DNA of 64,000 nucleotides, taken from NCBI RefSeq assembly GCF_005943945.1, contig NZ_CP040710.1:124001-188000 (forward strand), in the 5' to 3' direction. Position numbers and translations under genes: made by a program. The notes beneath the pieces were generated by a model, which did no database searches, was not told the DNA's origin, and saw only the letters and a program-made list of their open reading frames with translations. Within the stretch, counting starts at the first letter, position 1. Each line of letters starts with the position of its first letter. Positions 6,000-19,290 of this stretch are shown one piece after another. This DNA comes from Aggregatimonas sangjinii (lineage in GTDB: Bacteria; Bacteroidota; Bacteroidia; Flavobacteriales; Flavobacteriaceae).

Positions 6000-7199
6000 C
6001 TAATTTCGTAGCTGTCCATTTCCTTTCACATACCATTTATTGGTCACCAGATGCTGTAGGCCAATGGGGCCTCTTTGATGTAATTTATCGGTGCTAATGG
6101 CCAACTCCCCACCCAATCCGAACTGACCGCCATCGGTAAAGCGGGTAGAGGCATTGTGATACACCGCAGCCGAATCCACAGCTTCCATAAAGGCATCGGC
6201 TTTTTCGGTATTGGCGGTGATGATCGATGCGGAATGCCCGCCTCCGTAGGTATTGATTTTGGCAATGGCATCCTCTAAATCCGATGCTTGTCCGATGACG
6301 ATTTTATGGTCAAGAAATTCTTCGTGCCAAATATTTTCATCTGCAATAGGATGTGTTCCCTCTAGGCTCGCGAAGGCTTTATCGGTCAAAATCATCACCT
6401 CGCTCTTTTGTAATTCCAAAATGAGGTGTTGTAAAAAATGATGCTTTCGGGCCAAGTCGGAAGCCACTAGAACCTTATCCAACGCATTGCAGGCCGATAT
6501 TTTAGTAGTCTTTGCATTTATGATGATATCCACCGCCATTTGCAGATCGGCTTCCGAATCAACAAATACAAAATTATTTCCGCGGCCACTTACGATTACC
6601 GGGCATGTTGCATGTTTTTTAACAAAGGCGATCAGTCGCTCACCCCCACGCGGCACAATCAAATCCAGTTTTTGTGAAGGTCGTTCCAAAAAGGCTTGGG
6701 TCTCGTTTCTATCGAACTTTAGGTAGTTGACCCAATCGGTGGCGCAACCATTTTCCTGAAGGGCCTTGTGCCACAAATCGACCAAAACCAGGTTGCTGTT
6801 CAGCGATTCTTTTCCACCCTTTAATAGAATTTTATTCCCTGACTTAAAAGCAATTCCCGCCGCTTCGATGGTGACGTCGGGCCTTGATTCATAAATGATG
6901 AGAATGGTGCCGAACGGGGCGGTTTTATTACTAATATGCATCCCGTTTTCGTGGGTGGTTGCAAATCGTTCGATACCTAGCGGGTCAGGTTCCGAGGCTA
7001 GTTGCTCCAATGATATAATCATACCATCAATTTTGCCTTGGTCGACTTTTAGTCGGTCCAGCATAGCAATATCCTCTCCTGTATAGCTTTCCAGATCGAT
7101 CTGATTGGCATTCAATAGGGTCTCTCTACTTGTGGCGATGCTTTTGGCCATCGTGTTTAAAACCGAATTGCGCTGCGTTATATTCAGTTGCTTGCTCAC
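6000..7199 (-). CDS. proA: gamma-glutamyl phosphate reductase
   Basis: 399 residues. An NADPH-dependent reductase making glutamate semialdehyde from gamma-glutamyl phosphate for proline. The aldehyde-dehydrogenase-fold catalytic Cys is in ISACNALDKVLVA near residue 240. The nucleotide-binding block IIYESRPDVTIEAAG lies near 104-118, GRGNNFVFVD near 210, and a C-terminal RFTDGGQFGLGGELAIST near 350. The start overlaps the stop of argD by 4 bp (ATGA at 7196-7199). The product is shared chemically with the argD substrate pool, which fits the joint arrangement of arginine and proline genes. Confidence 0.95.
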   Translation of the reverse strand: MSKQLNITQRNSVLNTMAKSIATSRETLLNANQIDLESYTGEDIAMLDRLKVDQGKIDGMIISLEQLASEPDPLGIERFATTHENGMHISNKTAPFGTILIIYESRPDVTIEAAGIAFKSGNKILLKGGKESLNSNLVLVDLWHKALQENGCATDWVNYLKFDRNETQAFLERPSQKLDLIVPRGGERLIAFVKKHATCPVIVSGRGNNFVFVDSEADLQMAVDIIINAKTTKISACNALDKVLVASDLARKHHFLQHLILELQKSEVMILTDKAFASLEGTHPIADENIWHEEFLDHKIVIGQASDLEDAIAKINTYGGGHSASIITANTEKADAFMEAVDSAAVYHNASTRFTDGGQFGLGGELAISTDKLHQRGPIGLQHLVTNKWYVKGNGQLRN

Positions 7200-17890: not shown

Positions 17891-18004
17891 AGTAAAGACA
17901 TTTTACGATTAGTCGAAGTTACGGAAGCTTACTAACATATCTCTCTATTTAGAATTTTGGGTAATTTTTTTACAAAGTATCTATTTGCCGAATTAATTTC
18001 GCTC

Positions 18005-18089
18005 TGTCAGTCCGAGCCTGTCGAGGAACTTTTCTCATATGGCAGCGCTTCGACGAGCCTGCCTGCCGTCAGGCAGGCTCAGCGTGACA
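18005..18089. repeat. palindromic repeat unit 1, with nested hairpin
   Basis: Left arm TGTCAGTCCGAGCCTGTCGA, a short loop, then a right arm ending GGCTCAGCGTGACA. The arms pair imperfectly (TGTCA/TGACA, GAGCC/GGCTC, GTCGA/TCGAC). The right arm is split by a second inverted repeat at 18057-18078 with 9-bp arms GCCTGCCTG and CAGGCAGGC around CCGT. A spacer of about 41 bp containing GTGTTCCGAATTGGC and GGCCAAATC follows. Confidence 0.9.
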
Positions 18090-18130
18090 GTGGTGTTCCG
18101 AATTGGCTATGGGCCAAATCGGTTCTAGTT

Positions 18131-18195
18131 TGTCAGTCCGAGCCTGTCGAGGATCTCTCTCCAAATAGTGGCGCTTCGACGGGCTCAGCGTGACA
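18131..18195. repeat. palindromic repeat unit 2
   Basis: The same left and right arms as unit 1 without the nested hairpin, giving the basic 65-bp palindrome and a 106-bp period to the next unit. The spacer again carries TTGGC...GCCAA, itself able to pair. Confidence 0.9.
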
Positions 18196-18236
18196 ATGGT
18201 GTTCCGAATTGGCTATGGGCCAAATCAATTTTAATT

Positions 18237-18321
18237 TGTCAGTCCGAGCTTGTCGAGGACCTTTCTTCAGGGGGCAGCGCTTCGACAGGCCTGCCTGCCG
18301 TCAGGCAGGCTCAGCGTGACA
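18237..18321. repeat. palindromic repeat unit 3, with nested hairpin
   Basis: Arms as in the other units, with the nested GCCTGCCTG/CAGGCAGGC hairpin at 18289-18310 in the right arm, at the same position as in unit 1. Confidence 0.9.
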
Positions 18322-18363
18322 GTCGTGTTTCGAATTTGCTTTGCGGCCAAATCAGTTCCGGTT

Positions 18364-18448
18364 TGTCAGTCCGAGCCAGTCGAGGACCTTTTCTCATATG
18401 GCAGCGCTTCGACAGGCCTGCCTACCGTCAGGAAGGCTCAGCGTGACA
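18364..18448. repeat. palindromic repeat unit 4, with degenerate nested hairpin
   Basis: Arms as in the other units. The nested hairpin at 18416-18437 has one change in each arm (CCTA, GGAAGG), and the two changed positions do not compensate each other, so this copy is decaying. Confidence 0.88.
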
Positions 18449-18490
18449 ATCGTGTTCCAAATTGGCTTTGCTGTCAAATCAGTTCTGGTT

Positions 18491-18882
18491 TGTCAGTCCG
18501 ATCCTGTCGAGGACCTATCTCTATCTTTAGGATGCCTGTGTTCCGAATAGTTTTTAGAGAATTCAACGAGATCTTTCCAATTTTCCTCGATCAAGGCCAT
18601 CTTCTTCTGATGCGACCATCCTTTGATTTGCTTTTCAATTGCAATGGCCTCCGATGGGCTGGTGCACTGCAAGTACCATTTCAGGAGTACGGGTCGCCTG
18701 AAATAGGTGTAGCTATCTTTTCTATGGCCAGACTGATGTTGCGCAAGCCTTCTTTCCAAATCGTTGGTCATGCCCGTATAGTAAGTTCCGTCTGAACAAA
18801 ATAAGATGTACACGAAATAGAACTTCATCACTTTATTAAAGATTTATCATTGTGAGCACGCTTCGACGGGCTCAGCATGACA
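18491..18882. mobile_element. repeat unit with a GIY-YIG gene between its arms (putative autonomous element)
   Basis: A left arm (18491 to about 18516, TGTCAGTCCGATCCTGTCGA) and a right arm (18859-18882, CGCTTCGACGGGCTCAGCAT then GACA) are separated by 342 bp holding a complete GIY-YIG gene, instead of the roughly 20-bp loop of neighbouring units. The element is 392 bp and keeps the same orientation and spacing as the array. The left arm supplies the last codons and stop of the gene. The layout is what is expected if the short units are gene-less derivatives of this one. Confidence 0.65.
18493..18831 (-). CDS. GIY-YIG domain nuclease
   Basis: 112 residues. A stand-alone GIY-YIG domain of the UPF0213/YhbQ type: FYFVYILFCSDGTYYTGMTN at 4-23 holds both core motifs (VYI and YTG), the catalytic Arg is in ERRLAQHQSG near 26-35, and the metal-binding Glu in AIAIEKQIKGW near 62-72. 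The C-terminal tail EHRHPKDRDRSSTGSD is encoded by the left repeat arm, which also provides the TGA stop. The start is MMKF (the second Met, at 18828, is equally likely). Single-domain proteins of this family cut or nick DNA in the few characterised cases; the substrate here is unknown. The gene lies wholly inside a repeat unit. Confidence 0.85.
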   Translation of the reverse strand: MMKFYFVYILFCSDGTYYTGMTNDLERRLAQHQSGHRKDSYTYFRRPVLLKWYLQCTSPSEAIAIEKQIKGWSHQKKMALIEENWKDLVEFSKNYSEHRHPKDRDRSSTGSD

Positions 18883-18924
18883 TTGGTGTTCCGAATTGGC
18901 TTTGCGGCCAAATCAGTTCCGGTT

Positions 18925-18989
18925 TGTCAGTCCGAGCTTGTCGAGGACCTTTCTTCAGGGGGCAGCGCTTCGACGGGCTCAGCGCGACA
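18925..18989. repeat. palindromic repeat unit 6
   Basis: Basic 65-bp palindrome without nested hairpin. The right arm carries one change (GCGCGACA instead of GCGTGACA). Confidence 0.88.
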
Positions 18990-19031
18990 GTGGTGTTCCG
19001 AATTGGCTTTGCGGCCAAATCAGTTCTAGTT

Positions 19032-19097
19032 TGTCAGTCCGAGCCTGTCGAGGACCTTTCTCCAGATAGTGGCGCTTCGACGGGGCTCAGCGTGACA
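19032..19097. repeat. palindromic repeat unit 7
   Basis: Basic palindrome with one extra G in the right arm (CGGGGCTCAG). The period to the next unit is 107 bp. Confidence 0.88.
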
Positions 19098-19138
19098 TTG
19101 GTATTCCGAATTGGCATTGGGCCAAATCAGTTCTAGTT

Positions 19139-19204
19139 TGTCAGTCCGAGCCTGTCGAGGACCTCTCTCCAGATAGTGGCGCTTCGACGGGGCTCAGCGT
19201 GACA
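19139..19204. repeat. palindromic repeat unit 8
   Basis: Nearly identical to unit 7 including the extra G and the loop, which points to a recent tandem duplication of unit plus spacer. Confidence 0.88.
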
Positions 19205-19246
19205 TTGGTGTTCCGAATTGGCTTTGCGGCCAAATCGGTTCTAGTT

Positions 19247-19259
19247 TGTCAGCGTGACA
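19247..19259. repeat. collapsed repeat unit 9
   Basis: Only the outer ends remain (TGTCA joined to GCGTGACA) at the position where the next palindrome is expected, 108 bp after unit 8. This is consistent with precise loss of the hairpin. Confidence 0.7.
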
Positions 19260-19290
19260 GTATGAACCTCATTGCCATTCTATGAGCGGA

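Follow-up and report, generated by a model that had tools for sequence, protein, structure and literature searches.

Introduction

REP sequences with their RAYT enzymes, and the related REPINs, are characterised by many short imperfect palindromes in intergenic DNA, by one nuclease gene that is itself flanked by palindromes and by gene-less derivatives, all of them tied to the enzyme; the RAYTs are included in the Y1_Tnp family. Free-standing homing endonuclease genes, for example those of the Seg type in phage T4, encode enzymes of the GIY-YIG family. GIY-YIG enzymes hydrolyse DNA and, to our knowledge, do not join DNA ends, and GIY-YIG domains are also found in structure-specific repair nucleases. 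One-domain GIY-YIG proteins have been named UPF0213, which we take to be the same as COG2827.

Three small genes with a COG2827 endonuclease domain are mentioned for Caulobacter in one paper (PMC1839093). The literature searched, mainly openly readable journal papers, gave in titles and opening lines of abstracts no description of bacterial GIY-YIG genes inside palindromic repeats, and a sequence-only reading of the DNA described here knew of no system of this kind. The window that we analysed is a stretch of 64,000 nucleotides from Aggregatimonas sangjinii (NZ_CP040710.1, positions 124,001 to 188,000).

Results

A GIY-YIG nuclease gene occupies the loop of a repeat unit in the window

The features of the repeat array are listed in Table 1. 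It can be seen that a GIY-YIG nuclease gene fills the loop of an imperfect palindrome, as the sequence-only reading had it, and that the arms enclose 344 bp by their coordinates rather than the 342 bp given there. The minus-strand gene has possible starts at 18831 (GTG) and 18828 (ATG), and at its other end the 3′ arm, translated in frame, supplies the SSTGSD codons and the TGA stop, again as had been proposed. The two ends of the unit can be told apart, since in the direction of the gene the 5′ arm starts TGTCA-TG/CG-CTGAG and the 3′ arm finishes GGACTGACA.

Table 1. Coordinates of the repeat units, the nuclease gene and their insertion site in the window.
Feature	Position	Strand	Basis or remark
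Intergenic insertion site, MORN-repeat gene / 4Fe-4S membrane protein gene	17891..19290	.	Empty in 8 congeners
Gene-less unit 1	18005..18089	minus	Arm search
Gene-less unit 2	18131..18195	minus	Arm search, DNA folding
Gene-less unit 3	18237..18321	minus	Arm search, DNA folding
Gene-less unit 4	18364..18448	minus	Arm search
3′ arm of filled unit (gene orientation; left arm)	18491..18514	minus	TGTCAGTCCGATCCTGTCGAGGAC; TGTCAGTCC type end
GIY-YIG nuclease gene	18493..18831	minus	112 aa/codons; C-terminal SSTGSD and stop encoded by arm
5′ arm of filled unit (gene orientation; right arm)	18859..18882	minus	CGCTTCGACGGGCTCAGCATGACA; TGTCATGCTGAG type end
Gene-less unit 5	18925..18989	minus	Arm search
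Gene-less unit 6	19032..19097	minus	Arm search
Gene-less unit 7	19139..19204	minus	Arm search, DNA folding
Collapsed remnant TGTCAGCGTGACA	19247..19259	.	Two ends joined, inside lost; read from sequence

The encoded protein belongs to the GIY-YIG nuclease superfamily (PF01541; E 2.5e-17, 63.4 bits against a curated cut-off of 22.6) and is related to the UPF0213-named structures 1zg2 (E 1.9e-11) and 1ywl (E 5.2e-9). It matched no NCBIfam family and none of the PADLOC families, that is, no known anti-phage defence protein. The GIY-YIG frame is the sole family-matched ORF between the arms, and family searches of the ORFs of the element gave no DDE, DEDD or HUH transposase. Allowing up to two mismatches, the left arm has 12 copies in the 4.72-Mb, single-contig genome (reversed control 0) and the general arm pattern 27 (control 0), so the copies of the window arms are not due to chance. 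A comparison of the repeats with Rfam gave one match, of 22.5 bits, under its gathering score of 40. Among the named loci, the one most identical to the window gene (81%; L179:6001-6336) has an in-frame stop within the gene. A second GIY-YIG gene of the same genome (L002, 528887-529195) lies between arms of another sequence (CTTCGRCTACGCTCAGCCACCGGG).

Between 18005 and 19204 there are eight left and eight right arms, which make up seven gene-less units and the filled one; eight neighbouring units had been counted from the sequence alone, and while gene-less units are indeed present, their number is seven plus one collapsed remnant. All seven are oriented like the GIY-YIG gene. When three of them were folded as DNA, two formed a stem in which the closing TGTCA/TGACA leads into a 2 x 2 mismatch, then seven pairs, one further mismatch and finally some five pairs; closure by TGTCA/TGACA was also seen in the third. 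The folding energies were slightly better than those of shuffled sequences (z -0.85 to -1.78), and because they barely exceed the shuffles our case is built on comparison and not on energy. Elsewhere, tandem rows of single arms without a partner were seen at spacings of 52-89 bp in L033 (same genome, 2964738-2965022), L139 and L143.

The MORN gene was present in eight of the nine congeneric genomes searched, and the 4Fe-4S gene adjoins it in all eight. Neither the array nor a GIY-YIG gene was seen in the printed DNA between these two genes in any of the eight. By eye, a stretch of L081 at this site may be a decayed unit. A GIY-YIG gene lies in the same junction in six loci of other genomes; both neighbours were detected in four of these (L185, L192, L226 and L232), and in L183 and L205 the MORN gene was sub-threshold, with both flanks matching the others. 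L185 is a single filled unit without an array.

Arms flank GIY-YIG genes in many genomes

The loci compared numbered 140, of which the family sample described below contributed 60 and a further search 80; 127 of them yielded 135 GIY-YIG ORFs. With a length of 80-160 amino acids and sufficient flanking sequence required, and identical proteins counted once, 121 genes were kept; 1030 ORFs of the same loci served as controls, from which duplicated places (L132 and L221, for example) had not been removed. An TGTCANNYYGAG end was found within 200 bp on both sides of 57 of the 121 GIY-YIG genes as against 2 of the 1030 control ORFs, and likewise the inverted-repeat score was above the control 99th percentile for 62/121 genes and 11/1030 controls. 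Among the 49 closest relatives, 46 had at least one arm within 200 bp and 37 had both, so that this clade does not usually lie away from the repeats.

We also considered neighbouring arms that converge on each other across 200-1500 bp. Of 43 distinct pairs of this kind, 41 had a GIY-YIG gene inside (44 of 46 before near-copies were merged), although the loci had been picked via the GIY-YIG gene and 41/43 is therefore not a genome-wide rate. One of the two exceptional pairs holds an IS110-family ORF and the other no frame longer than 43 amino acids, so unrelated genes between arms are rare in loci chosen in this way. The IS110-family transposase gene that is enclosed by two arms (L217, 542-1519) may belong to an IS110 element whose target is the palindrome. 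A candidate for another gene between arms, on contig 1 of G039, turned out to be a row of gene-less units. In L096 (G085) and L110 (G131) the GIY-YIG frame does not stop at its usual place but continues, so that the open frames reach 411 and 417 amino acids.

Arms and gene co-occur in genomes of the family

The sample comprised 149 genomes of the family, 51 of which had a GIY-YIG match at E 1e-15 or better. Arms were counted with two patterns, T1 and T2, for which reversed-pattern controls gave 0 hits (T1) and 5 hits in total (T2). At least five arms were present in 34 of the 51 genomes with the gene as against 10 of the 98 without it (odds ratio 17.6, p 1.7e-12), so that the repeats are not common where the gene is lacking; 17 of the 51 gene-bearing genomes had fewer than five arms of the two searched types. 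A RAYT was considered as the mover of the repeats and rejected: over the 149 genomes Y1_Tnp was not associated with the pooled T1 and T2 arms (20/59 versus 24/90, p 0.36), and T1 arms alone were weakly associated with it at low thresholds (p 0.009 at one or more arms, p 0.002 at three or more).

All ten repeat-bearing genomes without a close gene have some PF01541 protein, and six of them have other small GIY-YIG genes; in G015, G070 and G093 the PF01541 matches lie only in frames of 385-608 amino acids. No T1 or T2 arms were found within 1.5 kb of the 15 other small or medium GIY-YIG loci that we checked in gene-negative, repeat-bearing genomes. In our reading, the repeats in genomes without a close gene may be relics. 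G127, which has no intact close relative at E 1e-15 and holds 13 T1 arms, has a GIY-YIG copy with stops (L174; contig 20, 113042-113554) that is preceded at 124 bp by a T1 arm and followed immediately, as seen by eye, by a degenerate one, with a further T1 arm in the same orientation downstream.

Arm type, polarity and selection

We distinguished three arm types, A (CTGAGC-NN-GTCGARG), B (CTGAGC-NNN-GTCGA) and C (TCGAGTG...TATCGAGA), and mapped them onto a nuclease tree of 102 proteins that has few columns and many unresolved forks. Labels were available for 89 rows (46 A, 26 B and 17 C; 72 labelled from both sides and 17 from one), and these required three changes where two is the minimum, the extra change being due to an arm of type A that occurs in a fourth clade, and with the 13 unlabelled rows scored as a fourth state nine changes were required (least possible 3, shuffled mean 49.0); since the arms adjoin the gene, shared descent alone would yield this agreement. 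A more independent comparison is provided by whole genomes, with clades assigned for 49 of the 51 (G088 and G124 left out). T2 arms outnumbered T1 arms in 11 and were fewer in 3 of the 14 genomes that have clade C and neither A nor B, and in the 26 genomes with A or B and without C there were more T1 arms in 16, more T2 arms in 7 and a tie in 3 (contrast between the two groups, p 0.007). Taken singly, T2 differed between the clade groups (p 0.006) and T1 did not differ significantly (p 0.06).

Type A units have a polarity, in that a GT follows TGTCA (TGTCAGT) in 31 of 37 3′ arms and in none of 35 5′ arms. Of 37 type A genes, 15 have their stop codon inside the arm. All 14 complete gene-less units within 3 kb, which come from 9 of 43 type A loci, share the orientation of the gene (15 units and 44 type A genes before copies were merged).

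Values of dN/dS were 0.04-0.17 in 11 of the 12 pairs of smallest dS and 0.49 in the twelfth, and the median was 0.17 over 248 pairs with dS below 2, the window gene being too diverged to be in any of these. Judged by this ratio, the comparison shows the GIY-YIG genes to be under purifying selection. The proteins also group according to where the gene is inserted, with 7 changes of site on the tree (minimum 5, mean of shuffles 18.2), and much of the present distribution may thus be old residence with loss.

Empty and filled alleles at one junction in Winogradskyella

We searched 60 Winogradskyella genomes for the ketoacyl-synthase gene, which matched in 35, and 30 loci were read. By our own reading, the junction between the FabA-like gene and the synthase gene was empty in 17 genomes, filled in 6, occupied by a short unit in 2 and by other sequence in 5. 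At the window site, eight congeners are likewise empty. In the empty junctions the stop and start codons overlap as ATGA. The two short units are those of L269, which is degenerate, and L274, in which the stretch folds into a hairpin (z -1.66); neither L274 versus L281 nor L283 versus L280 gave clean precise boundaries. On the synthase tree the filled state required six changes for six genomes, at least five of them forced by well-supported branches, which may be gains or losses alike, as direct repeats ease precise loss and the two are not separable at this junction.

In L212, 67 bp of the start of the synthase gene (66 of them identical) flank the insert on both sides, outside both arms. The left copy retains the ATGA overlap with the FabA-like gene and the right copy begins an intact synthase gene. 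Since the duplication lies outside both arms, arms and gene would have entered together, and L212, one case, is the strongest single sign of such a joint entry. The single difference between the copies (L212:5866-5932 versus 6396-6462) is CGTCA in the intact gene and TGTCA in the left copy, the latter matching the end letters of the element.

L212 was the only locus in which a target duplication was recognised with confidence, by a screen that took the best direct repeat per locus and whose arm-motif filter would hide even L212, so that others were possibly missed. Direct-repeat scores of at least 34 also occurred around 43 of 937 control ORFs. In L145 (G034) an 82-bp direct repeat without the arm motif flanks a clade B GIY-YIG gene, and is perhaps another target duplication.

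Related genes beyond the family and a possible tRNA-associated lineage

In loci titled as other phyla, TGTCA-ended arms flank related genes: a 35-bp inverted pair does so in a Pirellula genome (L240), and a Chloroflexi locus (L245) likewise has an inverted pair. The L245 protein matched in 131 of 296 Bacteroidota genomes searched, and 30 loci were taken, 25 of them uncut by contig ends. In 23 of the 25 at least one flank carried a TGTCAT-type end, in either orientation, at a distance of up to 250-300 bp, and in 15 both flanks did; the corresponding figure for control placements, which overlapped and had the same geometry but lay farther out, was 22 of 150. The inverted-repeat score was above the earlier control threshold in 9 of 28 L245-type loci, at least one of which (L320) was misplaced. 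As far as its flanks can be compared, this distant GIY-YIG clade shows the same arrangement of a gene between arms. Five Clostridia loci with relatives had no arms of the searched types.

Other GIY-YIG genes adjoin tRNA genes and have a partial tRNA copy on the opposite side (L006, L008 and L009 (genome of the window, 3617177-3618015), L010 (4472102) and L011 (4036834), and also L149, L152, L154, L161, L162 and L178). The copies measure 24 bp in L006, 36 bp in L010, 57 bp in L161 and 64 bp in L162, and the shortest (13-17 bp, L149 and L011) may be due to chance. In places gene and fragment form tandem copies. These loci look like a second GIY-YIG lineage, as if inserting into tRNA genes with target duplication.

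Discussion

The comparison of loci leads us to regard as likely that the window holds a small selfish element, in which a one-domain GIY-YIG gene and palindromic arms insert jointly in a homing-type manner, with REP-like gene-less derivatives. Linkage, co-occurrence, polarity and one bounded insertion, all taken from sequence comparison, show gene and arms to behave as one unit, which supports the sequence-only reading in its view of gene and repeats as one element with short gene-less units; that the nuclease recognises the arms or the target and drives insertion, or moves the units at all, is what we infer. The ends of such an element would be imperfect-palindrome arms, typically starting TGTCA and finishing TGACA, and gene and arms would enter intergenic or gene-start sites together. 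The nuclease would cut the target, and host repair or replication would probably copy the unit in; at least once, insertion appears to have left a long target duplication that restored the gene that was hit. Because GIY-YIG enzymes hydrolyse DNA without joining ends, strand joining would have to be the work of the host, and we therefore prefer homing-type insertion to transposition. The short units would be gene-less relatives that arose by internal loss or by mobilisation in trans and then multiplied into tandem arrays. Weighing against this reading are the 17 gene-bearing genomes with few arms, the ten repeat-bearing genomes without a close gene, the weak tie of T1 arms to Y1_Tnp, the grouping of the proteins by insertion site and the restriction of a confidently recognised target duplication to one locus.

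A rival explanation is that the palindromes are host or foreign repeats which spread by other means, the nuclease being a homing endonuclease that targets existing units. In the window, as in many genomes, there are indeed more gene-less units than genes, ten of 98 genomes have repeats and no close gene, one pair of arms encloses an IS110-family ORF instead and T1 arms alone show their weak association with Y1_Tnp. We nevertheless consider the explanation unlikely, because the synthase junction is free of repeats in 17 of 30 relatives and its filled sites have arms as well as gene, because the L212 duplication encloses both, as though they had arrived together, because arm type tracks nuclease clade, and because the pooled arms are not associated with Y1_Tnp (p 0.36).

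A role in the host is less probable still. A structure-specific nuclease might process repeat hairpins in repair or maintenance, its gene having come to lie in a repeat accidentally or because this serves its regulation; GIY-YIG domains include nucleases of that type, the gene is under purifying selection, and relatives occur in the five Clostridia loci without arms of the searched types. Against this stand the patchy presence of the gene (51 of 149 genomes), the stop-bearing copy in G127, the alternation of empty and filled states at one site and the fact that each of several arm types has a nuclease clade of its own. Tandem duplication alone, in which a functionally unrelated gene was trapped by a repeat array on one occasion and then copied with it, seems to us hardly credible: the single filled unit of L185 has no array, the arrangement recurs in distant clades with unlike arm sequences, and the co-occurrence and tree tests disfavour it, even though a tandem arrangement with repeated spacers is seen in the window array and in several others.

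A wider proposal, which we hold more tentatively, is that such elements form a separate class of mobile palindromes in Bacteroidota and several other phyla, possibly defined by a one-domain GIY-YIG nuclease as sole product, which would recognise hairpins of its own type with TGTCA ends, insert itself with long duplications of the target and mobilise gene-less units in trans. If true, this class would explain a large share of the bacterial CTTCGAC...GCTCAG...TGACA and TGTCATTCTGAGCGAAG hairpins. A likely engine would then be named for common bacterial hairpin repeats, for which the literature searched gave none. Direct tests are made possible by the pairing of each arm type with a nuclease clade, and by the occurrence of empty, short and filled states at a single site within one genus.

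Comparison with known systems

The window protein belongs to the same family as the UPF0213/COG2827 one-domain GIY-YIG proteins, members of which in five Clostridia loci differ in having no arms of the searched types. With IS/MITE pairs the element has in common distinguishable ends, autonomous and non-autonomous forms and, in one insert, a target duplication; it differs in that there is no transposase in the unit, the duplication is 67 bp and a fixed length of target duplication is not established.

The likeness to REP/RAYT systems comprises short imperfect palindromes in many intergenic copies, the same palindromes flanking one nuclease gene, gene-less derivatives and a presence tied to the enzyme gene. 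The enzyme is, however, a GIY-YIG protein and not a Y1 HUH tyrosine transposase; its gene sits in the loop of one unit; and Y1_Tnp is unassociated with the pooled repeats and weakly associated with one type. The logic of REP/RAYT or IS/MITE pairs, which the sequence-only reading had invoked, is comparable, whereas recurrence at conserved sites and the long duplication favour homing-type insertion over RAYT-like transposition. Our findings suggest that an arrangement with the logic of REP/RAYT can also come about around an enzyme unrelated to RAYTs.

With free-standing GIY-YIG homing genes the element shares a lone one-domain gene of a homing nuclease family, a patchy distribution and occupied and unoccupied alleles at a conserved junction beside a conserved gene. 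Unlike them it has terminal palindromes, gene-less satellites and one 67-bp target duplication. The findings also suggest that a GIY-YIG nuclease, a hydrolytic enzyme, can by itself carry an element whose ends are defined.
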